13,174 bases of DNA from Actinomycetota bacterium (GTDB lineage Bacteria > Actinomycetota > Actinomycetes > Actinomycetales > Microbacteriaceae), in the NCBI GenBank assembly GCA_027728145.1, contig JAQBZV010000008.1:1-13174 (forward strand), given 5' to 3'. The position numbers and the translations under genes were made by a program. Every line of letters starts with the position of its first letter. The first letter of the stretch is position 1. This document shows positions 1,034-12,829 of the stretch, piece after piece. The notes under the pieces are model-generated. The model worked only from the letters and a program-made list of their open reading frames with translations, was not told the DNA's origin and did no database searches.

Positions 1034-2853
1034 AGACTCGCTCCCCTCTGAGTCTCTGGATCATTGCCGGACTCCTCACCCCGCTGGTCATCATCGGAGG
1101 ACTGCTGGGCGCCCTCTCCTCGGGAGAAAACGCCCTGGAGCGGGTGCCAGTCGCGTTGGTCAACAACGATGAGCTCATCACCGAGACCGATGACGCCGGG
1201 GAAGAGACCTTTATTTTTGCCAGTAAGCCCCTCGTGACTGAGTTGGTCACGTCCGATGATTTCGCCGTGGACTGGCTGGTCACCAGTTCTGAACAAGCGA
1301 GAGCCCTGCTCGCCTCCGGCGATGTTTATGCGATCGTCGAAATCCCCGAGGATTTCTCCTATGCCGTCACGACTCTTGAGACTGACAATCCCGAACAAGC
1401 AACGTTCACCATCATCACGGATGCCTCCCACAGCTATCTTGCGGGGCTGCTGTCTGACCAAATTGGTGACGCTCTTGCCTCTGGCGTCAGTGACGAATTT
1501 GGCTCGGGGATCATGGAAGGGCTCTTCACCGCGATTGTGGAAATCGCGGACGGATTCGACGAGATTGCCGAGGGTGCCGACACCCTCGCCGACGGGGTAG
1601 AGGAAGTGTCCGAAGGAGTCACAGAACTCAACGACGGTGTCGAAGATCTTGCCTCGGGCTATACCGAGTTTGACGATGGCCTTGGCACCTTCAGCGAGGG
1701 TGTCACCTCGCTCTCCGACGGACTTGACGCCCTGGGCGAGGGAACGTCGGGGCTCACCGCCCTGTCAACCGGTGTCAAGACGTACACCGACAGTATCTCA
1801 ACCCTGTCCGCTGGGCTGTCTGGGGTGAAAGCGTCCGGGGCGCTCAGTGGAAACCCGGCAGAAGCGAGCCTCAACGCGCTAATTGACGGTCTCGCCACTG
1901 CTGCTTCGGGAGGTGGGACTCTGTCGACCCAGACCTCCACCGCGCTCAGCGGTGTCACCAAGGGAATCATCGAGCTCGACAAGGGTGCAGACGCACTCGA
2001 TGACGCCGGTCAAGATATTGCTGAAGGATCCGGAGAGATTCGCGAGGGCCTCACAGACCTCGCGGAGGGAACGGGTGAGCTCGACGAAGGCATGGTCGAA
2101 TTGGCCGACGGCGCACGTGAATTTGCGGACGGTGTGGCCGAGGGCGCTGCTGATCTCCGCGAGGGCGCAGGGACAATGCCCAGTGACGAAGCGCTCGAGG
2201 TATTGAATAACCCGGTGGTCTTTGATGGCAGCAATATTTCGGAGACCATTGGGTTCCAGGAGACTCTCTCCAGCGTTCTCGTTCCGGTGGGAATGTGGCT
2301 GGTGGCTCTGGCCTATTTCCTGGCGTTACCCAGTTATTCCTCAAGAATTTTGGGCAGCACCGCCAGGACCCAAGCCCTCCTGGGGCGGGCAACGAGGCCC
2401 ATCCTGGTCATGGTGGGGACCTGGAGCGCGATTGTCATCACACTCCTCCACACCTTGGGTGGTGTCGCCTGGTCGGCGCTGGGATTCACCGGACCCATCG
2501 TTGTGCTGAGTGCGCTGGCCATGGCAGCTGTGCACTTTGCCGTGTGGGCATGGAACCCCCGTTGGTTGGCTCCCCTATCTCTCGGTGCGCTGATTGTGCA
2601 GATTGTGAGTCTCGGCAGCGTCGTTCCGATCGAAATTCTCCCCAGCATCTACCAAGCCATCTCGGGCGCAACACCGCTCGGCTGGACAACCGATGCCTTG
2701 ATTGCGTCCCTGGCAGGAGGAGACATCTCCCGAACTATCAGCGCGCTGGTGTCACTTGCTGTGTTGACCACGGTCGCCTACATTCTCTCCGCCCTCATTC
2801 TTCGCTCGAAGAGGACGCTGGCAACCCAGACCCAGGTGGGCCTACAGGCCTAA
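1030..2853 (+). CDS. YhgE/Pip family membrane protein
   Basis: This encodes 607 residues. An upstream GTG at 889 is in frame, but ATG 1030 is preferred because it forms an ATGA overlap with the previous gene and is followed at once by a typical start: a short basic end and a helix at about 8-30. Next comes the extracytoplasmic YhgE N-domain (ERVPVALVNNDELI..., AIVEIPEDFSYAVTT). Two long blocks of seven-residue repeats with the pattern x-D/E-G follow at about 170-240 and 310-400 (EGADTLADGVEEVSEG, LDEGMVELADG). About five helices lie between 430 and 600 (ABC-2/Pip type). The family is named after a lactococcal phage-infection protein and is thought to be part of envelope export machinery. Overlap with an MMPL gene suggests a shared complex or substrate. 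No conventional ATPase gene is in view; the pseudo-ABC domain upstream is the only candidate partner. Family call strong, substrate unknown. Confidence 0.88.
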   Translation: MKTRSPLSLWIIAGLLTPLVIIGGLLGALSSGENALERVPVALVNNDELITETDDAGEETFIFASKPLVTELVTSDDFAVDWLVTSSEQARALLASGDVYAIVEIPEDFSYAVTTLETDNPEQATFTIITDASHSYLAGLLSDQIGDALASGVSDEFGSGIMEGLFTAIVEIADGFDEIAEGADTLADGVEEVSEGVTELNDGVEDLASGYTEFDDGLGTFSEGVTSLSDGLDALGEGTSGLTALSTGVKTYTDSISTLSAGLSGVKASGALSGNPAEASLNALIDGLATAASGGGTLSTQTSTALSGVTKGIIELDKGADALDDAGQDIAEGSGEIREGLTDLAEGTGELDEGMVELADGAREFADGVAEGAADLREGAGTMPSDEALEVLNNPVVFDGSNISETIGFQETLSSVLVPVGMWLVALAYFLALPSYSSRILGSTARTQALLGRATRPILVMVGTWSAIVITLLHTLGGVAWSALGFTGPIVVLSALAMAAVHFAVWAWNPRWLAPLSLGALIVQIVSLGSVVPIEILPSIYQAISGATPLGWTTDALIASLAGGDISRTISALVSLAVLTTVAYILSALILRSKRTLATQTQVGLQA

Positions 2854-3353
2854 CCGACTCGGTGGAGCCAGACCACAGAGCGTTCGTCTCCCGCGTGGCG
2901 GAAAGCTTCGAGCTCGTCATCCCAGGCGCCCCCGAGGGCAACCCGCAGCTCCCGCGAAATCTCCTCAGCATTGCCCTGCGCCACCTCGAGGGCATACCGG
3001 ATGCGATCCTCGGGAACCACAATGTTGCCACTCGAGTCGGTCTGGGCGAAGAAGACCCCCAAATCAGGGGTGTGCATCCAGCGACCGCCGTCTGAGCCCG
3101 GTGTGGGCTCCTCGGTCACTTCGTAGCGAAGATGCTCCCAACCCCGCAAAGAACTGGCGATGGCAGCCCCCGAGCCGACCGGACCCATCCACTCCATTTC
3201 CGCCCGCAAGGTTCCCGGCAAAACGGGTTGCTCCTCCCACCGGCAGTTCACCGGGTACCCCAGCGCGCTACCAATAGCCCACTCGAGGTGGGGACAGAGA
3301 GCACGCGGTGAGGAGTGCACAAAAAGCACACCGCGAGCACGGGTGGTTGTCAT
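2850..3353 (-). CDS. DUF3145 domain protein
   Basis: A 167-residue soluble protein beginning MTTTRARGVLFVHSSPRAL and containing CPHLEWAIGSALG, RAEMEWMGPVGSGA and a HTPDLGVFFAQTDSSGN segment. These match my memory of DUF3145, a family largely confined to Actinobacteria and without a known function. Length and full-span similarity suggest an intact gene. The ATG start is preceded by GGAG about nine bases upstream (TAGGAGTAGACG before ATG on the minus strand), supporting this start. The gene converges on the YhgE gene and the two stop codons overlap in the four bases CTAA at 2850-2853, so there is no room for a terminator between them. No signal peptide or membrane segment is visible. Function unknown. 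Confidence 0.85.
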   Translation of the reverse strand: MTTTRARGVLFVHSSPRALCPHLEWAIGSALGYPVNCRWEEQPVLPGTLRAEMEWMGPVGSGAAIASSLRGWEHLRYEVTEEPTPGSDGGRWMHTPDLGVFFAQTDSSGNIVVPEDRIRYALEVAQGNAEEISRELRVALGGAWDDELEAFRHAGDERSVVWLHRVG

Positions 3354-3479
3354 CGTCTACTCCTATTCCGTTGGTTCGACTTCCCCATCGACCGCGGAAT
3401 AACGCGAGTAGTGCATGATTTGGTCGCAAGACCGGGTCCCAGTATGCGCTATCAACCCTAAGAATTACAAGTGTGGTAC
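3354..3479 (-). promoter_or_regulatory. Leader and possible promoter of the DUF3145 gene
   Basis: This is the 126-base gap between the DUF1684 stop and the DUF3145 start, both on the minus strand. On the minus strand a TTGTAA, 18 bases, CATACT pair (about 3439-3468) is a fair sigma-70-like match, which would give a leader of roughly 75 bases. There is a small GGTC-GCAA-GACC hairpin near 3422-3433 but no clear intrinsic terminator for the upstream operon. Read-through from heliorhodopsin/DUF1684 into DUF3145 is therefore possible. The promoter call rests on hexamer similarity only. Confidence 0.25.
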
Positions 3480-4292
3480 TTATCCGTGCAGCAGGGAACC
3501 ATCTTTTGCGAGCACGTTCTTCTCCCCTGCCTCAATAGCGAAGGGGAACCTGTTTTGTGCCGGCGGGAGCGGACAGTTGAAGGCATAGGAGAACGCACAC
3601 GGCGGCAGGATGGCGTAGTTGAAGTCCAGGGTGATGGATCCATCGGGGTTCGGGGCAAGAAACAAGAACCGTCCGACACTGTACGTGGAGCCACCGTTAG
3701 TAGCGTCAGCAAACACCAGCTGGAGTGCCCGACCCGCTTTGAACGCGGCAATGCTGTAGTCCGCTCCGTCGTGGCTGAAGGTAATCTCGCCGGGAACTAC
3801 CTCATCCCGTGCCACACCCTCGTCCTTCAGGTGCTCAAACCCCACACTTGTCCCACCGGGTATCTCTTTCCACGTTCCGGTGATAACCCACTGGGGCGCA
3901 TACGGGTAAGCGTCTACTTCACCAAAGTTCTGGATGCCCTCCGATTGGGAGTCCCACACCCGCAGAGCGTAGGTGCCCTCGGCGGCGATGACGTGTCCGC
4001 TCACGGTGTCGCTAAACACGACTGTGGAGGGAGATTCATCATCTTTGCCCCGAACACTGACCTGGCCATCCACAGTCACACCGTCCACGACGATGCTCTC
4101 GGAGGCCTCCGCGGTCACCAGTAGGCCCGAACCGCCATCAGTGCGTGGCCCCCAGGTGCCTGGAACCCCCCAAATGGGTTGTTCCATATCCACCCACTGG
4201 GTGTTGGTGAGCGCCAGAGGACCCTCGGGTTGAATCGCTGCCAGGTTTCGGCGCTCGCGAAACGTCGCGAGCTTGTCCTCTGCTTCCGACAT
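3480..4292 (-). CDS. DUF1684 domain protein, second gene of the heliorhodopsin operon
   Basis: A 270-residue soluble protein with no signal peptide or membrane helix. The C-terminal third carries the DUF1684 signature as I know it: VGRFLFLAPNPDG (about 206-218), then DFNYAILPPCAF (223-234), a second Cys at 240 in NCPLPPAQN, and FAIEAGEK (251-258). The two cysteines (232, 240) and the PP/CPLPP motifs are the conserved core. The asparagine usually seen before PPC appears as I-L-P-P-C here. The N-terminal part has an all-beta look with aromatic-Gly-Pro turns. DUF1684 proteins are widespread and, to my knowledge, have no assigned biochemical role. The ATG lies four bases after the heliorhodopsin stop with only a weak Shine-Dalgarno, pointing to translational coupling. 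It may modify, bind or signal from the rhodopsin, but this is inference from position. Confidence 0.85.
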   Translation of the reverse strand: MSEAEDKLATFRERRNLAAIQPEGPLALTNTQWVDMEQPIWGVPGTWGPRTDGGSGLLVTAEASESIVVDGVTVDGQVSVRGKDDESPSTVVFSDTVSGHVIAAEGTYALRVWDSQSEGIQNFGEVDAYPYAPQWVITGTWKEIPGGTSVGFEHLKDEGVARDEVVPGEITFSHDGADYSIAAFKAGRALQLVFADATNGGSTYSVGRFLFLAPNPDGSITLDFNYAILPPCAFSYAFNCPLPPAQNRFPFAIEAGEKNVLAKDGSLLHG

Positions 4293-4296
4293 TGAG

Positions 4297-5100
4297 CTAG
4301 TCAGTCAGAGCGGGAATGATTGCGCCGGCAAACACCTGGTAGGCGAGGACTGTCTTGGCAATCAGGCTCAGTGTGATGTACATCCGCTCACCACGGAGGT
4401 AGTCCTTCCAACCACCGACGCGGTGGTACTGCAGCGCCTGATTGATGGCGAAGGTGTTGAAGAAGAAGAACAGCGAAATGATGATTCCCAGCACAAAGTC
4501 GGGAGCCTCGACACCGGAGGTGGAGCCGGGTGCGATGAAGTAAATCAGGATGACAATCCAGGGAACGACCCCGGTCATCGACCCAAACACAAAGGGCAAA
4601 AAGCCACCCGAGCCAGGCTGCTCGTACTTCTCCTGGAGCGCTCCGAACATGATCATGGACGCGTTGACAGCAAAGATCGAGAACAAAGCCGCAACATCGG
4701 TGATTCCGGTGATTTGGGCAATCAGCCAAATCATGACGGAGGAGCTCAGAGAGTACTCAGTCCAGCGGAAGTAGTTGCGGTTGAGCTTGAGTCCTGCTGC
4801 GTAACGCTTGAAGAACAACGGCGAGGAGATCAGGTAGTGGAAGAACGCGGACATGGCCAAGAAGGCGACGACACCGATTCCCACATTGATGTCAAAAAGC
4901 TCCACTCGTTCCGGAGGAAGGGGAACGCCGGGAGGGCCCGCCAAGTAGTCAGCGGTCACCGCATAGGTGACCTGGTCTTCCAGGAGAAACAACACGTAGC
5001 CCAAACCCACTGCTTGAAGAAGGTGCAGGGTCCCTGCAACAACGTTGTAGGTCCTCAGCCGGGTAATTTTCTGGTCGAGGGTTCTTACGTGTTTTGCCAT
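4297..5100 (-). CDS. heR: Heliorhodopsin
   Basis: A 267-residue, seven-helix protein. I chose ATG 5100 (MAKHVRTLDQ) over an in-frame GTG 24 bases upstream, because AAGGAG sits seven bases before it. Heliorhodopsins are retinal proteins only distantly related to type-1 rhodopsins, lie inverted in the membrane with the N-terminus inside, and have a slow photocycle suggesting sensing rather than pumping. Residues seen: Schiff-base lysine K249 in LSLIAKTVLAYQVFAG (helix 7); counterion E115 in FRWTEYSLSSSVMIWL (helix 3); His26 and His88 at the places of the retinal-pocket histidines; FVFGSMTGVVPWIVI (helix 5); the long helix A-B loop (about 42-70). K249 and E115 are each offset by eight from K241/E107 of the founding protein 48C12, as expected for true alignment. 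The basic N-terminus fits the inverted topology. No retinal synthesis gene is in view. Role and signalling partner unknown; DUF1684 is the nearest candidate. Confidence 0.95.
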   Translation of the reverse strand: MAKHVRTLDQKITRLRTYNVVAGTLHLLQAVGLGYVLFLLEDQVTYAVTADYLAGPPGVPLPPERVELFDINVGIGVVAFLAMSAFFHYLISSPLFFKRYAAGLKLNRNYFRWTEYSLSSSVMIWLIAQITGITDVAALFSIFAVNASMIMFGALQEKYEQPGSGGFLPFVFGSMTGVVPWIVILIYFIAPGSTSGVEAPDFVLGIIISLFFFFNTFAINQALQYHRVGGWKDYLRGERMYITLSLIAKTVLAYQVFAGAIIPALTD

Positions 5101-5202
5101 ATCTGTTCTCCTTGGGGTTACCACTACGGTACTCCCCTCAGAAAGGATTCAGAGTGCAGCGAGTCAGAATTTTGGACCTTAGCTAGCAAGGATTGCGGTT
5201 TG
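5101..5202 (-). promoter_or_regulatory. Gap between vapC and heliorhodopsin, possible heliorhodopsin promoter
   Basis: This 102-base gap between the toxin stop and the heliorhodopsin start is long enough for a separate promoter. On the minus strand it contains TTGCTAGCTAAGGT and a TACCGT hexamer nearer the gene, but I find no convincing pair of -35 and -10 boxes and no intrinsic terminator. Co-transcription with the toxin-antitoxin genes cannot be ruled out. Confidence 0.2.
5108..5113 (-). promoter_or_regulatory. Ribosome binding site deciding the heliorhodopsin start
   Basis: On the minus strand AAGGAG lies seven bases before ATG 5100. The longer in-frame alternative beginning at GTG 5124 would place this site inside the coding region and add eight polar residues (MVTPRRTD) not expected at a heliorhodopsin N-terminus. 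This fixes the start with good confidence. Confidence 0.75.
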
Positions 5203-5607
5203 CTAACGAGAGGGAATCCAGTTCTCCAGCCGGATACCACCCACCAGCTCGAAGTGCCGTGTGTTGCCGGTAACGAGTGTCACCCCAAGAGAGCGAGCGT
5301 GTCCGGCAATCAGATAGTCCATCTGCCCTGAGGGCCGACCCAGTTTCTCCAACTCAGAGCGAACCATGGCGGCCTCAACCGCAGCGGGAGTGCCGAAGGA
5401 GACACACGGCGCAGAGCCCAAAAACTTCTGAAGGGAGTCCCTGGAGCGAGGCAAAAGTTTCCCTCTTTCCAGCCCGTACTGGAGCTCCGCATAGACAAGC
5501 GAGCTGATACACCACGCGTCTCGGTCGAGCTCATCTACTCGAGAAAAAACCTCGGCGTTGCCCATCACCAGTTCGCTGCAGGTATCCGTGTCGAGGAGAT
5601 ACATCAC
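5203..5607 (-). CDS. vapC: VapC/FitB-type PIN-domain ribonuclease toxin
   Basis: A 134-residue PIN-domain protein, the usual length for VapC toxins, which are metal-dependent endoribonucleases that cut tRNA or rRNA when their antitoxin is lost. The PIN acidic set is visible: D6 in MMYLLDTDTCSELV, E41 in YAELQYGLERG, D97 in GQMDYLIAGHA, and the C-terminal LVTGNTRHF motif with N115 where many relatives have Asp (Asn is common in FitB-like proteins). The start is either GTG 5607, giving a GTGA overlap with the antitoxin stop and a GAGG seven bases upstream, or ATG 5604, giving a TGATG overlap; the first has the better spaced ribosome site. Direct overlap with the antitoxin gene is classic for the type II layout. 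Its target RNA cannot be told from sequence. Confidence 0.9.
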   Translation of the reverse strand: MMYLLDTDTCSELVMGNAEVFSRVDELDRDAWCISSLVYAELQYGLERGKLLPRSRDSLQKFLGSAPCVSFGTPAAVEAAMVRSELEKLGRPSGQMDYLIAGHARSLGVTLVTGNTRHFELVGGIRLENWIPSR

Positions 5608-5879
5608 GCAGAATCCTCGGAGTCCCAGGCTGAGGGCCGGGGAGGATCATCACGCCGTGACAACTCCTCCAGAGCGGGGTCTCGGACATAAGGAGCGTCT
5701 CGCATGAAGTCAAAGAAATCTTCGGGGTCAAAGGCGTCACCCTGGGTCACATAGACCCTTCCCGTTCGCTGGTCTCTCACTAGGGTGACATCTTGCTCAG
5801 CGTCGAACCAGCCTGCGGGTATCCGCAGGGCAACACTGCCGCCGTTGCGAAAAAACCGTGTCCTCACCACATCGGACAT
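5604..5879 (-). CDS. vapB: VapB-type antitoxin (AbrB-like DNA-binding N-terminus)
   Basis: A 91-residue protein starting MSDVVRTRFFRNGGSVALRIP. An in-frame ATG 60 bases upstream (5939) would add a segment translated from the AT-rich dyad and is rejected; AGAGG about six bases before ATG 5879 supports the shorter form. Residues 5-45 (TRFFRNGGSVALRIPAGW..., GRVYVTQGDAF) resemble the swapped-hairpin fold of AbrB/MazE/VapB antitoxins, which bind DNA. The acidic, Pro- and Asp-rich tail (DPEDFFDFMRDAPYVRD, DDPPRPSAWDSEDSA) is the usual flexible toxin-neutralising part. It overlaps vapC. It probably represses its own promoter through the AT-rich dyad just upstream. Confidence 0.82.
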   Translation of the reverse strand: MSDVVRTRFFRNGGSVALRIPAGWFDAEQDVTLVRDQRTGRVYVTQGDAFDPEDFFDFMRDAPYVRDPALEELSRRDDPPRPSAWDSEDSA

Positions 5880-5895
5880 TGTCGCCTCTTTCTCG

Positions 5896-5919
5896 TTATA
5901 TATACATAATATATATGTT
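5896..5919. promoter_or_regulatory. AT-rich dyad upstream of vapBC: candidate operator and promoter
   Basis: A 24-base all-but-GC-free stretch in an otherwise GC-rich sequence, sitting 17 bases before the vapB start. It contains TATATAT at 5897-5903 and its complement ATATATA at 5909-5915 around a five-base centre. On the minus strand it offers TATATT and TATAAC as -10 boxes. Position and symmetry fit a VapB/VapBC operator over the core promoter. Binding is inferred from how such operons are usually controlled. Confidence 0.5.
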
Positions 5920-5924
5920 GGGGC

Positions 5925-5933
5925 TGTGGATAA
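5925..5933 (-). promoter_or_regulatory. Perfect DnaA box (TTATCCACA on the minus strand)
   Basis: The nonamer is an exact match to the classical DnaA box and lies next to the AT-rich dyad at 5896-5919. I found no other perfect box close by, so a replication origin is unlikely. It may be a chance match or may link vapBC or desaturase transcription to DnaA. Confidence 0.35.
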
Positions 5934-6055
5934 GTTCACCTCGCGTCACGATGGCGTTCAGCCTCCCGAAAGGCTCCAGCTGGTACGGTCAGAGCATCTA
6001 GGGGCCAACACTGTGGTTCTTCATCGACTGAGAAGTCAGCGCAAGCAGGAACCCC

Positions 6056-7132
6056 ATGTCGAACGCGGTATTGGATCATCCACTCCCCCGCCCCCACTCC
6101 TACACATCAGAGTTCGCTGAGCTCTTGGCCCGAATCAAGGATGAGGGCCTCCTGGGTCGCTCTCGCACCTACTACATCACCCTCATCGTGATTCTGTCGG
6201 TGTCTCTCCTGGCCACTCTCACCGGGATGTATTTCCTCGGCAATACCTGGATTCAGATTGCTCTAGCACCAGCAATGGCGATCATCATGACCCAGTTCTC
6301 CTTCGTAACTCACGAAGCGGCTCACCGTCAGGTGTTCAGCTCGGGGAAAGCCAACGACAACACCGCGAGGATCCTTGCCAACGCTGTGGTCGGCATCAGC
6401 TACTCCTGGTGGATGGGCAAGCACACTCGCCACCACGCGAACCCCAACACAGTGGGCAAAGACCCCGACATCGAGTCTGACTTCATTATGTTCCAGGAAG
6501 AAAAAGCAGCTAAGACTTCGGGATTCACCAAAGCATTCGTCAAACGACAGGGCTGGCTGTTCTTTCCCATTCTGACGCTCGAGGGCCTCAACCTCCACGT
6601 TCAAGCATTCAAGCGAGTGTTCAGCAGAGAGCCACTCAAGCACCGCGGAACAGAAATCACTCTGCTGCTCGCCCGCAACATCGGGTATCCCCTCATCCTG
6701 GTGGCTCTCATGCCCTGGTATATCGCGGCAGTCTTTCTCGTCGTCCACATGGCCCTCTTTGGTGTTTATATGGGGGCCTCCTTTGCCCCCAACCACAAGG
6801 GCATGCCTCAGATCGCTGCGGGCATCAAGGTCGACTTCCTGCGTCGCCAGGTTCTGACCAGTCGCAACATCCGTGGGGGCCTGTTTATGGACCACTTCAT
6901 GGGTGGGCTCAACTACCAGGTGGAGCACCACCTGTTCCCCAGCATGGCCAGACCCAAACTTGCCAAAGCCGCTCGCATTGTTCGAGCGTTCTGTGCAGAA
7001 AAGAAGATCTCGTACACGGAGACCGGGCTCTTCCAGTCTTACGGCATCGTGGTGGCGTATTTGAACCGGGTCGGACTCGCTGCTCGCGATCCTTTTGACT
7101 GCCCCCCGGCTCAGGTTCTCGGCCGGGCTTAG
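6056..7132 (+). CDS. Membrane acyl-lipid/acyl-CoA fatty acid desaturase
   Basis: A 358-residue integral membrane di-iron enzyme that introduces a double bond into fatty acyl chains. All three histidine boxes are present: HEAAH (86-90), HTRHH (123-127) and QVEHH (288-292), the last followed by LFPSM as in the linoleoyl-CoA/DesA3-like and front-end branches. Hydrophobic helices lie at about 41-62, 64-84, 207-227 and 225-245, giving the usual four-helix roof with the boxes facing the cytoplasm. No cytochrome b5 domain is fused, so electrons must come from separate ferredoxin or reductase proteins not seen here. The start has AGGA five bases upstream. Chain position cannot be predicted; Glu in the third box is compatible with several specificities. 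It is divergent from vapBC and not in an operon with its flanks. Desaturases of this kind commonly adjust membrane fluidity at low temperature. Confidence 0.92.
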   Translation: MSNAVLDHPLPRPHSYTSEFAELLARIKDEGLLGRSRTYYITLIVILSVSLLATLTGMYFLGNTWIQIALAPAMAIIMTQFSFVTHEAAHRQVFSSGKANDNTARILANAVVGISYSWWMGKHTRHHANPNTVGKDPDIESDFIMFQEEKAAKTSGFTKAFVKRQGWLFFPILTLEGLNLHVQAFKRVFSREPLKHRGTEITLLLARNIGYPLILVALMPWYIAAVFLVVHMALFGVYMGASFAPNHKGMPQIAAGIKVDFLRRQVLTSRNIRGGLFMDHFMGGLNYQVEHHLFPSMARPKLAKAARIVRAFCAEKKISYTETGLFQSYGIVVAYLNRVGLAARDPFDCPPAQVLGRA

Positions 7133-9612: not shown

Positions 9613-9687
9613 TGTCAGAGTGTGACACGTTGTGTCAGGATGACCGCCAGGTTTACTGACATATCGACCGACGTCTACCGAATGACA
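9613..9687. repeat. Cluster of TGTCA/TGACA motifs with a perfect dyad
   Basis: TGTCA or its complement occurs at 9613, 9623, 9633, 9657 and 9683 (the last inside the propeller gene's end). The pair at 9623-9637 forms TGACAC-GTT-GTGTCA. It sits between the tRNA-like remnant and the propeller gene. It might be an integrase arm-site array or a terminator-like dyad; there is no further evidence. Confidence 0.3.
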
Positions 9688-11396
9688 GGAATGTTCGCCC
9701 CAATAGACGTGAACACACCAGAACCAACAGTTACTTGGGACGTCAACTGCAAGGTTGCCCCGTTCGTGTGAGTACCCGACATGCGCACGTTATACGTTCC
9801 TGGAGCCAACTCCGGGAGACGAACCATCGACGAGAATGACCCATCCGCACCAATTGTTCCCTCCGCCAGGGTTACCACCGAGGGGGCTACATTCGACACC
9901 TTCGTCACCGTCAACACATACGTCGATGTCACCGCAACACGATCAGCACCGTAATACACAGGAGAACCCTGCACCTGTTTACCCAACAACACACCATTCA
10001 CCGACAAGTAAATCCCCGGAACACCAGCCGAGGCAGAACTGCTCCCACCCGAGCTCACGGAAGGTTCGGAAAATTTTGCGAACTTAATCCCCTCTCCCGA
10101 ACTTGACCAAGTTGCAAAGGTGGAAGACCCATCCCGCGCCGCGACAAGATCTGGCGAATACTGGTTCACACCAGAACTGACGACGGTCTGGACAGAAAAT
10201 GATGAGCCGGAATCTGAGGAAATCGCTGCCTGGACCGTATCGTTAGCCCCGTCTGGACGAACCCACGCGACCGCGATTGTTGAACCATCTCCAGAGCTAG
10301 TCAGGACGGGAGCTTCGACAGTTTGTCCCGCTTCGGAAAGGGTAAAAGAGGTTGGGCTGCCTGAAGCGTAAACGGCAACTCGTGCGAGAAACTTAGAGCC
10401 ATCGGTTTCGCTCCAAGAAACTGCAGCAATACTCCCGCCTTCTGAAACCACGACCGAAGGACTCAGTTGTTGCCTTGAACCAGTCCCCGGAGTATCCGAT
10501 GCTCCCCAACTCACCCCCGAGTCTGAGCTCTGCTGGACAGTCACCTCTGTGGTGCTGCCCTCTAACCAAGTTGCATAGACCACAGTCCCATCGGAAGAAC
10601 TTGCAATTCGTGGCTCAAAGACATGTGTGCGAATGGCAGTGTCTGAGTGAATCTGTGGGGTCGACCACGAACTGCCAGAGTTGGTGGAGGAGGTTGATTC
10701 AGTTTGATATTTACTTGAGACCAGTCTTCTCCAAATGACGTGAACGGTGGCACCGTCATCCGAAACTGCGATTCCCCCTCTCGCGTCCACGCCCGCGTCC
10801 GACAGTGTTGTCGCTGCCGACCAGGAAACTCCCGAATTAGAGGACTTCGCTATTTTTACATACCAACCACTGCCGTTCCATTCATTCCAGGAAACGTATT
10901 GAATGGTGCCGTTCGAAGACCCGTCAATTATTTGAGCACCAGAACTGTAGGAACTGTTGGAAAGCCGAACTGGTGACGTCCATGTGGCGCCCGAATCGTT
11001 GCTACTGGCAACATAAATATCCCTGTTGAATGATGGGCCAGTCATAGTCCAGGTCAGGGTCACCGTTGACCCGTCATGCGATGAAAAAATTCTCGCGTCA
11101 TAAGCGCTCACAGAACCCGAGGTATGGGTTGTCACATCCGACCACGTGGCAGAACTGTATCGCGCGGACTGAATCTGATAGCCGCCGCCGACATTAGCCC
11201 TCCATACGGAATGGACTAGCGACCCATCCGTTGACACAGCAAGGTCACCTTCCTCCGGAGAGTTCGCTGTCGCTATGTCAGTCAGAACGGTCCATGTCGG
11301 AACACCGTGGGCAGACTTATTTTCCCCGATCGGAAAGCCGACCATCAGCGCACCCAACAGTGCGACAACAGGAAAAGCACGAAGGATGCGACCCAC
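9675..11396 (-). CDS. Secreted Asp-box (BNR) beta-propeller protein
   Basis: A 573-residue exported protein. The frame can be read back to ATG 11480, but GTG 11396 has GGAG five bases upstream and begins a proper signal peptide (MGRILRAFPVVALLGALMVGF), so I use it. Asp boxes of the form S-x-D/N-S-G-x-x-W are seen at 132-139, 185-192, 237-244, 290-297 and 393-400 (last with F). Degenerate versions at about 80 and 342 complete a regular 52-residue period, i.e. seven units. A Ser-rich linker near 444-458 leads to an all-beta C-terminal domain (about 460-573, GIYLSVNGVLLG..., LPELAPGTYNVRMSGTH) of Ig-like appearance. The sialidase FRIP motif and arginine triad are not seen, so catalytic sialidase activity is unlikely; a carbohydrate- or protein-binding surface role is more plausible. 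The gene stands alone between two tRNA-like remnants. Confidence 0.85.
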   Translation of the reverse strand: MGRILRAFPVVALLGALMVGFPIGENKSAHGVPTWTVLTDIATANSPEEGDLAVSTDGSLVHSVWRANVGGGYQIQSARYSSATWSDVTTHTSGSVSAYDARIFSSHDGSTVTLTWTMTGPSFNRDIYVASSNDSGATWTSPVRLSNSSYSSGAQIIDGSSNGTIQYVSWNEWNGSGWYVKIAKSSNSGVSWSAATTLSDAGVDARGGIAVSDDGATVHVIWRRLVSSKYQTESTSSTNSGSSWSTPQIHSDTAIRTHVFEPRIASSSDGTVVYATWLEGSTTEVTVQQSSDSGVSWGASDTPGTGSRQQLSPSVVVSEGGSIAAVSWSETDGSKFLARVAVYASGSPTSFTLSEAGQTVEAPVLTSSGDGSTIAVAWVRPDGANDTVQAAISSDSGSSFSVQTVVSSGVNQYSPDLVAARDGSSTFATWSSSGEGIKFAKFSEPSVSSGGSSSASAGVPGIYLSVNGVLLGKQVQGSPVYYGADRVAVTSTYVLTVTKVSNVAPSVVTLAEGTIGADGSFSSMVRLPELAPGTYNVRMSGTHTNGATLQLTSQVTVGSGVFTSIGANIPVIR

Positions 11397-11536
11397 TGGT
11401 TCTCCAAATCTCAGACTGACGGGACACCGAGAAGCTAACCGAGGGTTGTCACACGCTAAACAGCATTCCTCGGACATCACAACGCTACCCTTTGGGAAAC
11501 AGCATGAGCAACCAAGTAATCAGGCGGACTTCAGAC
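11397..11536 (-). promoter_or_regulatory. Upstream region of the propeller gene
   Basis: 140 bases between the GTG start and the right tRNA-like remnant. The clear element is the ribosome site GGAG at 11402-11405 (minus strand), five bases before GTG 11396, within TTGGAGAACCA. I find no convincing -35/-10 pair. The upstream in-frame ATG at 11480 has no good ribosome site. Confidence 0.5.
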
Positions 11537-11764: not shown

Positions 11765-12829
11765 TCATTCATTTATCGCTATGCCTGGGCTCCCAACTAG
11801 GCCTGATTTGAAAGGGAGCGCTGCGCCGCTCAATGCCTCGGTGAAACTGCGAAGCGGGGAGAGCCCGTCGACTGACTCAGCCGTGAGTATGGTCCCCTCT
11901 TGCCCGTTGGAGACATAGGTGAGAACGGTGTTGCGCTCCGGATCCCAAATTCCGGCCGGAACACCACCCGAGTTATCTGAAACTCTAGAGGCGTAGTCAA
12001 AAGGACCGTTGACGTCTTCGCTTATAAAGGCGTCAGTGCTCCTTCCGCGAGAAATGTAGAGAACCCAGCTCTTGCCATTGAAGAAAATGTCGGGGTCGCT
12101 GAAGAAACAATCGCCACCTCGACACGACTGATCAATCGTTACGCTGACATGAGCAACCGGATTAACTGCGAACTGGCCACCTTGTGACTGAGGAATCTCG
12201 AGCGCACTTCGAATTTCCCGCGTACATGATGGTTGAGCTCCGCAACTGGCCGGGTCACCACCCGGTTGACCGGGGAGAAAGAAAAGAGTCAACTCACCGG
12301 TGGGCAAGAGCGCGAGCGAAGGATCGACAAAGCCAAACAGGTCGGATCCAACAAGCTCGACTCGATCTTCGTAAACATCCCCAGAGACCATGTCGATTCT
12401 TCGCAGACCGCTGGTGGATATTACGTACAGAACGTCGTCTCGCCTCAGCACGTCGGGAACCGATCCTGGGTACGCTCGCCACCCTTCGACGAGAGTCCAA
12501 GTGATGCCATCTGGGCTCTCGGCCAGTTGCACCTCATGTTGCGCAGGGTTGTTGCAGTCTGGAGAACCAACCACGCAACTATGAAAAGCCATCAGGTATT
12601 TCTCGACAGGCGGGGTGATATTTCCCACAAGCCGACCTGCTATCGCTGCTGTGTCTGGTTCTGCCTCCTCCGCCACCGAATATTCTTCTGACTCAGGAGA
12701 ACTCCCGCTCACTTCGACCTCAGAACTGGCGTCCGGTTTAGAGACTTCAGCAGTCCTCTCCGACGCACACCCACCCGAAACTAGGACGACTAGCGCAAGC
12801 ACAGCCCCAATGTGTGACCGCTTCATCAT
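11765..12829 (-). CDS. Lipoprotein with a GH43/GH32-like beta-propeller domain
   Basis: A 354-residue protein with a basic N-end, a hydrophobic stretch and Cys21 in LVSGGC. This is a plausible although not ideal lipobox, so it is probably anchored on the outer face of the membrane. An acidic, Ser/Glu-rich spacer (22-60) follows. The rest has propeller-blade motifs: an Asp-box-like SPDGITW (105-111), VPDVLRRDDVLYVIS (124-138), VDPSLALLPTGELTLFF (168-184) and SDPDIFFNGKSWVLYIS (244-260). These resemble five-bladed glycosidase-type propellers, but I cannot place a catalytic triad. Six other cysteines come in close pairs (85/92, 196/202, 236/241), fitting disulfides outside the cell. ATG 12829 and ATG 12826 are both possible, with no clear ribosome site; the upstream gene ends 11 bases before, suggesting coupled translation. 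Enzyme or binding protein is open. Confidence 0.75.
   Translation of the reverse strand: MMKRSHIGAVLALVVLVSGGCASERTAEVSKPDASSEVEVSGSSPESEEYSVAEEAEPDTAAIAGRLVGNITPPVEKYLMAFHSCVVGSPDCNNPAQHEVQLAESPDGITWTLVEGWRAYPGSVPDVLRRDDVLYVISTSGLRRIDMVSGDVYEDRVELVGSDLFGFVDPSLALLPTGELTLFFLPGQPGGDPASCGAQPSCTREIRSALEIPQSQGGQFAVNPVAHVSVTIDQSCRGGDCFFSDPDIFFNGKSWVLYISRGRSTDAFISEDVNGPFDYASRVSDNSGGVPAGIWDPERNTVLTYVSNGQEGTILTAESVDGLSPLRSFTEALSGAALPFKSGLVGSPGIAINE

Follow-up and report, generated by a model that had tools for sequence, protein, structure and literature searches.

The analysed window, by which the whole stretch of 13,174 nt is meant, belongs to genome G000 (79% complete) of Pontimonas, an aquatic group in the family Microbacteriaceae. 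A heliorhodopsin (HeR) gene and a DUF1684 gene follow each other on its reverse strand (Table 1), with the HeR stop codon at 4297–4299 and the DUF1684 ATG at 4290–4292. The initial annotation placed the two genes four bases apart on one strand, with a weak ribosome site for the second; the coordinates confirm the spacing, and the anti-SD duplex of DUF1684 is +0.7 kcal/mol. The next gene after DUF1684, on the same strand, codes for DUF3145. On the 5′ side of HeR there are a PIN-domain gene, a short gene before PIN, and then a divergent desaturase. The PIN gene and the short gene, located at 5203–5939 (−) between HeR and the desaturase, are probably a toxin-antitoxin pair of the VapBC type. In the HeR-less Pontimonas loci L055 and L056, it is DUF1684 that the PIN gene immediately precedes. 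Two proteins coded at 9675–11480 (−) and 11765–12829 (−) are without any Pfam match; by the look of their N-termini both are probably exported, and the second is probably lipoprotein-like.

Table 1. Features of the heliorhodopsin–DUF1684 locus in the window.
Feature	Position	Strand	Description
Heliorhodopsin (HeR) gene	4297–5100	−	267 aa; Pfam PF18761 and NF038020 profile matches
DUF1684 gene	3480–4292	−	270 aa; PF07920 match over residues 122–258
Intergenic gap HeR/DUF1684	4293–4296	−	4 nt; without ribosome site for DUF1684
Leader upstream of HeR	5101–5136	−	TACCGTAG element at 5124–5131, AAGGAG at 5108–5113; putative promoter role
Cx7C codons (Cys232 to Cys240 of DUF1684)	3573–3599	−	from alignment; motif named in the accessible part of PMC9426492
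DUF3145 gene	2850–3353	−	frequent DUF1684 neighbour in Microbacteriaceae; background gene order, outside the operon claim

The two proteins

The HeR of the window scored 308.8 bits with PF18761 (cut-off 26.7) and 334.4 bits with NF038020 (cut-off 100). Its closest solved relative is the 48C12 heliorhodopsin (6su3, 6uh3), with 288 bits over residues 10–265. Both have the TM7 lysine and the TM3 glutamate, represented in the window protein by Lys249, the retinal lysine in SLIAK of the SxxxK pattern, and by the Glu of WTEYS. The start ATG at 5100 is preceded by AAGGAG, a good ribosome site. The retinal lysine is kept in all nine DUF1684-linked HeRs of Pontimonas, and HeR is under purifying selection in this genus (dN/dS 0.04–0.10 in six pairs).

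The DUF1684 protein matched PF07920 with 127.7 bits (cut-off 25) and agrees with the solved fold of this family. It has an N-terminal helix, an FHA-like beta domain at about residues 21–118 (suggestive only), and the DUF1684 domain; its solved haloarchaeal relatives (2lnu, 2lok) have 190–197 residues versus 270 here. The Cys/Pro core seen in the initial annotation was found again as C232-x7-C240 together with PP and PLPP, and neither cysteine varies among the 42 orthologues aligned, i.e., the window protein and 41 of the best 80 of 110 DUF1684 loci. Purifying selection was recorded here too, with dN/dS of 0.03–0.07 in five Pontimonas pairs and 0.24 in the widest of the six. No functional name occurs among the best 120 of 2170 matches of a protein search, all of them PF07920, and no enzyme family was prominent beside the haloarchaeal relatives in fold comparison, an absence that excludes nothing.

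Contrary to the initial annotation, the family is not quite without a known role. According to the accessible part of PMC9426492, the Haloferax volcanii DUF1684 protein HVO_1043 is placed, on account of Cx7C, among thiol-relay proteins and is an OxsR target. The same motif is present in the DUF1684 of the window; HVO_1043 differs from it by its archaeal origin and its link to the OxsR regulator.

Conservation and expression signals of the pair

HeR is present in nine of the 19 Pontimonas genomes searched, and each of the nine has DUF1684 immediately behind it in the same orientation, with identity to the window DUF1684 going down to 63%. The DUF1684 copy of one of them, G403, looks broken or badly assembled. 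Genomes G104 and G406 carry an additional HeR, without DUF1684 in the flanks examined. A long DUF1684 is also found in four HeR-less Pontimonas (G030, G294, G326, and G378).

In the family sample of 398 genomes, HeR was found in 79 and DUF1684 in 348, and 65 of the 79 HeR-positive genomes have DUF1684. Adjacency was judged by visual comparison of two coordinate lists, in which some contigs are short and pairs at contig ends may have been missed; a HeR-type gene directly adjoins DUF1684 in 11 of the 79, namely in four Pontimonas and in seven Microcella, the latter all with a lysine-less HeR relative. In a further two Microcella, a single gene separates the pair. The class sample has HeR in 77 of 394 genomes, 75 of which are outside Microbacteriaceae. 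DUF1684, sought outside the family in just these 75, occurs in four of them and lies beside HeR in none. Among the genera sampled, a lysine-bearing HeR beside DUF1684 occurs in Pontimonas only. The pair is therefore lineage-specific and DUF1684 is not a general HeR partner. The count across actinobacteria proposed in the initial annotation thus does not support a class-wide association, and a general association was rejected as a candidate (0/75 adjacent outside the family, 11/79 in the family sample). Adjacency confined to the closest strains, named there as the outcome that would speak against a functional pair, is narrowly not what was found: the pair extends across HeR-positive Pontimonas as divergent as given above, but with a lysine-bearing HeR it stays within one genus.

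The junction between HeR and DUF1684 measures 2–6 nt in all nine HeR-positive Pontimonas; in G399 the two genes would overlap by 1 nt if DUF1684 started at an alternative GTG. Before DUF1684, a ribosome site of −4 kcal/mol or stronger was calculated for none of these nine, for three of the four HeR-less Pontimonas, for all 10 Microcella, and for 49 of 57 loci of other genera (of 60 such loci, three were without a start in the search range). The difference between 0/9 and 59/67 (Microcella plus other genera) has a Fisher p of 1.7e-7 with rows that are not independent and uncorrected for kinship, and that within Pontimonas a p of 0.014, also uncorrected for kinship. The arrangement as an operon of two genes with indications of translational coupling, as initially annotated, is thus supported, and it is genus-wide in HeR-positive Pontimonas.

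Close counterparts of the leader of the window HeR (TACCGTAG followed by AAGGAG) precede HeR in L053 (TACGGTAG), L054, and L088, and a counterpart stands directly before DUF1684 in the HeR-less Pontimonas L055 and L056. HeR accordingly sits between leader and DUF1684 in some Pontimonas and is absent from that spot in others. The HeR leaders of L057, L059, and L111 align poorly with the shared leader. A sigma-70 consensus scan of positions 2800–6100 gave no match, with 0.9 expected by shuffles.

The far side of HeR is variable. A desaturase is located upstream in L053, L054, and L111, and behind the PIN gene in the window; it was not found in the examined flanks of L057, L059, L060, and L088. 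DUF3145 stays near DUF1684 across Microbacteriaceae, and local gene order is therefore conserved anyway. HeR could have landed before DUF1684, with the old start signals decaying afterwards and the two genes remaining as neighbours by ordinary conservation of gene order, with no functional link. The persistence of DUF1684 in HeR-less Pontimonas agrees with such an origin, and by a rough estimate one chance adjacency among 23 HeR-positive genera would not be very unlikely. We nevertheless regard this passive origin as unlikely: the short junction is kept in all nine genomes while the far side of HeR varies, the ribosome site is missing in nine of nine, and a second, distinct HeR branch precedes the same gene in Microcella.

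The SigH/SigR-type promoter motif GRAAY-N17-19-GTT (GGAAY/GRAAY; SigH consensus from the accessible part of PMC10012870) was scanned for, with expectations taken from dinucleotide shuffles. It precedes DUF1684 in 28 of 60 Microbacteriaceae loci of other genera (0.97 expected) and in seven of 10 Microcella (0.04 expected) among L061–L132; 32 of the 60 are without it. As a control, the motif was found before the neighbouring DUF3145 in 0/49 loci of other genera and 0/8 of Microcella, these being the loci among the 60 and 10 with a usable upstream stretch. In the window it is absent from the 4 nt before DUF1684 and from the 250 nt before HeR. Counted from the real start with one locus per genome, the motif lies at most 250 nt from the HeR start in two of the nine HeR-positive Pontimonas, at distances of 182 and 249 nt; an alternative count with the extended frame, on 10 loci of eight genomes, gave one of 10. 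The motif is also missing before DUF1684 in all four HeR-less Pontimonas, and so its loss need not stem from HeR. SigH itself was above cut-off in three of nine HeR-positive versus nine of 10 HeR-less Pontimonas (p 0.02), the genome of the window having it; those without SigH include G104 and G256, which are 97% and 95% complete. Loss of SigH is thus a rival cause of motif absence in HeR-positive Pontimonas.

DUF1684 is a soluble protein, and because the motif often precedes its gene in HeR-less relatives, it is probably a redox or thiol-stress protein. The genes of the window are themselves without the motif, and the stress role is therefore taken from the relatives. Existing evidence on DUF1684 favours a part in thiol or oxidative stress over that of a dedicated light effector.

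Lysine-less heliorhodopsin relatives in Microcella

A HeR homologue without the retinal lysine is present in 23 of the 26 Microcella genomes, and a true HeR is present elsewhere in 14 of the 26. In the 22 Microcella with both the lysine-less relative and a long DUF1684, the latter follows immediately in 19 and after one intervening gene in three. The inserted gene codes for a choice-of-anchor protein in G074 and for a GH6 protein in G340, and an ORF of G799 resembles that of G074. The gap to DUF1684, taken by ATG, is 46–116 nt where measured. The HeR-like frame of G789 lacks the stop at its customary position and reads on, out of frame, into DUF1684.

The TM7 column has lysine in none of 21 Microcella proteins (one of them cut off there), and the remaining two of the 23 are also without it. 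The wider lysine-less set (L037–L052, L157–L178, and L183–L192) consists of these 21 and of 15 proteins from nine other genera, 36 of 36 without TM7 Lys with one cut off; the sub-threshold matches of G004, G201, and G246 and a fragment of G094 were left out. By sequence the Microcella proteins are HeR homologues, L062 matching solved HeRs at E 5e-15. The Microcella lysine-less proteins are under selection (dN/dS 0.22–0.29 in eight of nine pairs and 0.56 in one), less strict than that on the true HeRs of the genus (0.07–0.15). No description of lysine-less HeRs was found in the accessible part of PMC9601134 or in a brief literature search, a thin check.

In the HeR tree, computed without pieces shorter than 170 residues and with identical sequences entered once, the Microcella lysine-less set forms one clade (99/94) apart from the true HeR clade (100/100), with long branches and unusual composition flagged by the tree program. 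A topology grouping this set with Pontimonas HeRs was rejected (p-AU 0.007, with the long-branch caveat), as was one grouping it with the true HeRs of Microcella. In BLAST, all 21 scored higher against lysine-less proteins from other genera (best 89–179 bits) than against any of 52 true HeRs (best 36–103 bits). Descent of the Microcella proteins from Pontimonas-type HeRs by decay is unlikely by the tree, the p-AU value, and the BLAST scores, with long branches and odd composition to be borne in mind. The DUF1684 proteins of Pontimonas and Microcella form one clade (SH-aLRT 98 in a quick tree), and hence two separate HeR branches precede orthologous DUF1684 in sister genera. A single ancestral insertion before DUF1684 in the clade of Pontimonas and Microcella, with later replacement, may explain this.

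It is very improbable that a membrane protein of HeR fold partners DUF1684 irrespective of retinal, with light sensing as an addition in Pontimonas. The frequency of the lysine-less relative in Microcella, its position directly before DUF1684 in 19 of 22 genomes, its dN/dS in eight of nine pairs, and its probable independence from Pontimonas-type HeRs would all fit such a partnership. Against it, the Microcella gap is wide, all 10 Microcella DUF1684 loci have a separate ribosome site and seven of them a SigH-type motif, unrelated genes were inserted at least twice, the G789 frame overruns into DUF1684, and selection is weaker than on true HeRs. Also, none of the 15 lysine-less proteins of other genera was beside DUF1684 in the flanks examined, the one of G282 being about 3 kb away. 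A related proposal, that DUF1684 is the cytoplasmic partner of HeR-fold proteins, passing light to thiol redox in Pontimonas and serving a light-blind branch with another stimulus in Microcella, is quite improbable; if true, the rhodopsin fold would be an interchangeable receptor for one redox effector.

The three Microcella loci without the SigH motif (L063, L072, and L075) share CGTCGATTGGCGCGCATCC before DUF1684, and others such as L043 have GGCGCGCC nearby. These sequences are a possible operator.

Possible function of the pair

The HeR/DUF1684 pair resembles the operon partners defined in the accessible part of PMC8612252 in being on the same strand with a spacing below 10 bp, 4 nt here. 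In spacing, strand, and redox theme it is similar to the glutaredoxin and GSHPx pairs with HeR described there. It also shares spacing below 10 bp, strand, a soluble product, and redox theme with HeR operon partners such as glutamine synthetase, photolyase, ABC transporter, and other classes in the accessible part of PMC11109279. DUF1684 is not among the ten frequent HeR neighbour classes in that part of PMC11109279, and DUF1684 or PF07920 is not named in the main text of PMC8612252 as accessible; the supplementary tables of both may list it. The accessible part of PMC12422013 mentions rhodopsin genes of Microcella and Pontimonas, and the HeR–DUF1684 pair was not seen there. No paper joining heliorhodopsin with DUF1684 was found in the open-access literature.

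We give about an even chance to the explanation that HeR and DUF1684 form a coupled operon in Pontimonas, by which a likely thiol-stress protein is tied to the leader of a photoreceptor and photo-oxidative protection is obtained. Both genes would be transcribed together, and the leader with its ribosome site before HeR would serve both. DUF1684 would probably be translated by ribosomes that finish HeR 2–6 nt upstream and re-initiate. In HeR-positive Pontimonas, DUF1684 lacks a stress promoter directly before it and would be produced jointly with HeR. The most likely use would be to provide sunlit bacteria of small genome size with a thiol-stress protein at the same time as the membrane photoreceptor, which may be of benefit in light.

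This explanation is based on the arrangement, its genus-wide keeping, the missing ribosome site, the stress-type motifs in relatives, and the Cx7C motif; the shared transcript, the re-initiation, the redox function, and the benefit in light are what we infer from them. Redox genes are also reported as enriched near HeRs in the accessible part of PMC8612252. Against it, HeR is dispensable for DUF1684, as four HeR-less Pontimonas keep the latter, 32 of 60 relatives are without the motif, SigH was above cut-off in three of nine HeR-positive genomes, the leaders of L057, L059, and L111 match the shared one poorly, and the retinal-synthesis family BCD was not found in eight of nine.

Direct light signalling, in which illuminated HeR would change its cytoplasmic face and bind or release DUF1684 and so alter its activity, is possible but rather unlikely. 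Tight coupling would give matched amounts of both proteins. Only three residues are shared by all nine Pontimonas HeRs while occurring in no more than 10% of 43 other lysine-bearing HeRs, and two of them, K11 and H226, are in stretches that are cytoplasmic in the HeR topology; three are too few to weigh much, and no interface is claimed from them. Light signalling has precedents in other HeRs, with glutamine synthetase or ABC transporter, in the accessible parts of PMC9529153 and PMC11109279. Pairing with a lysine-bearing HeR in one genus only argues against direct signalling here, and so does the location of DUF1684 elsewhere, or its absence, in most HeR-bearing relatives of the family sample. 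The interpretation in the initial annotation, a light-responsive pair, is on the whole partly supported.

Under the coupled-operon explanation, DUF1684, as a coupled neighbour that probably acts in thiol stress, would offer a direct and cheap test of the proposed HeR role against light-induced oxidative damage. That the second gene has neither promoter nor ribosome site points to coupling in a way invisible to plain neighbour counts, and such signs could serve to rank other HeR neighbours.

BCD, the sole oxygenase family tried, was present in 18 of the 50 genomes searched for it. Among the nine HeR-positive Pontimonas it was not found in eight and is partial in the ninth (G399). The HeR-less Pontimonas G030 has BCD about 3.5 kb from DUF1684 (G030:C1:858631-859413 and 862893-863693, L180), with DivIVA, mechanosensitive-channel, and PsiE genes between them.
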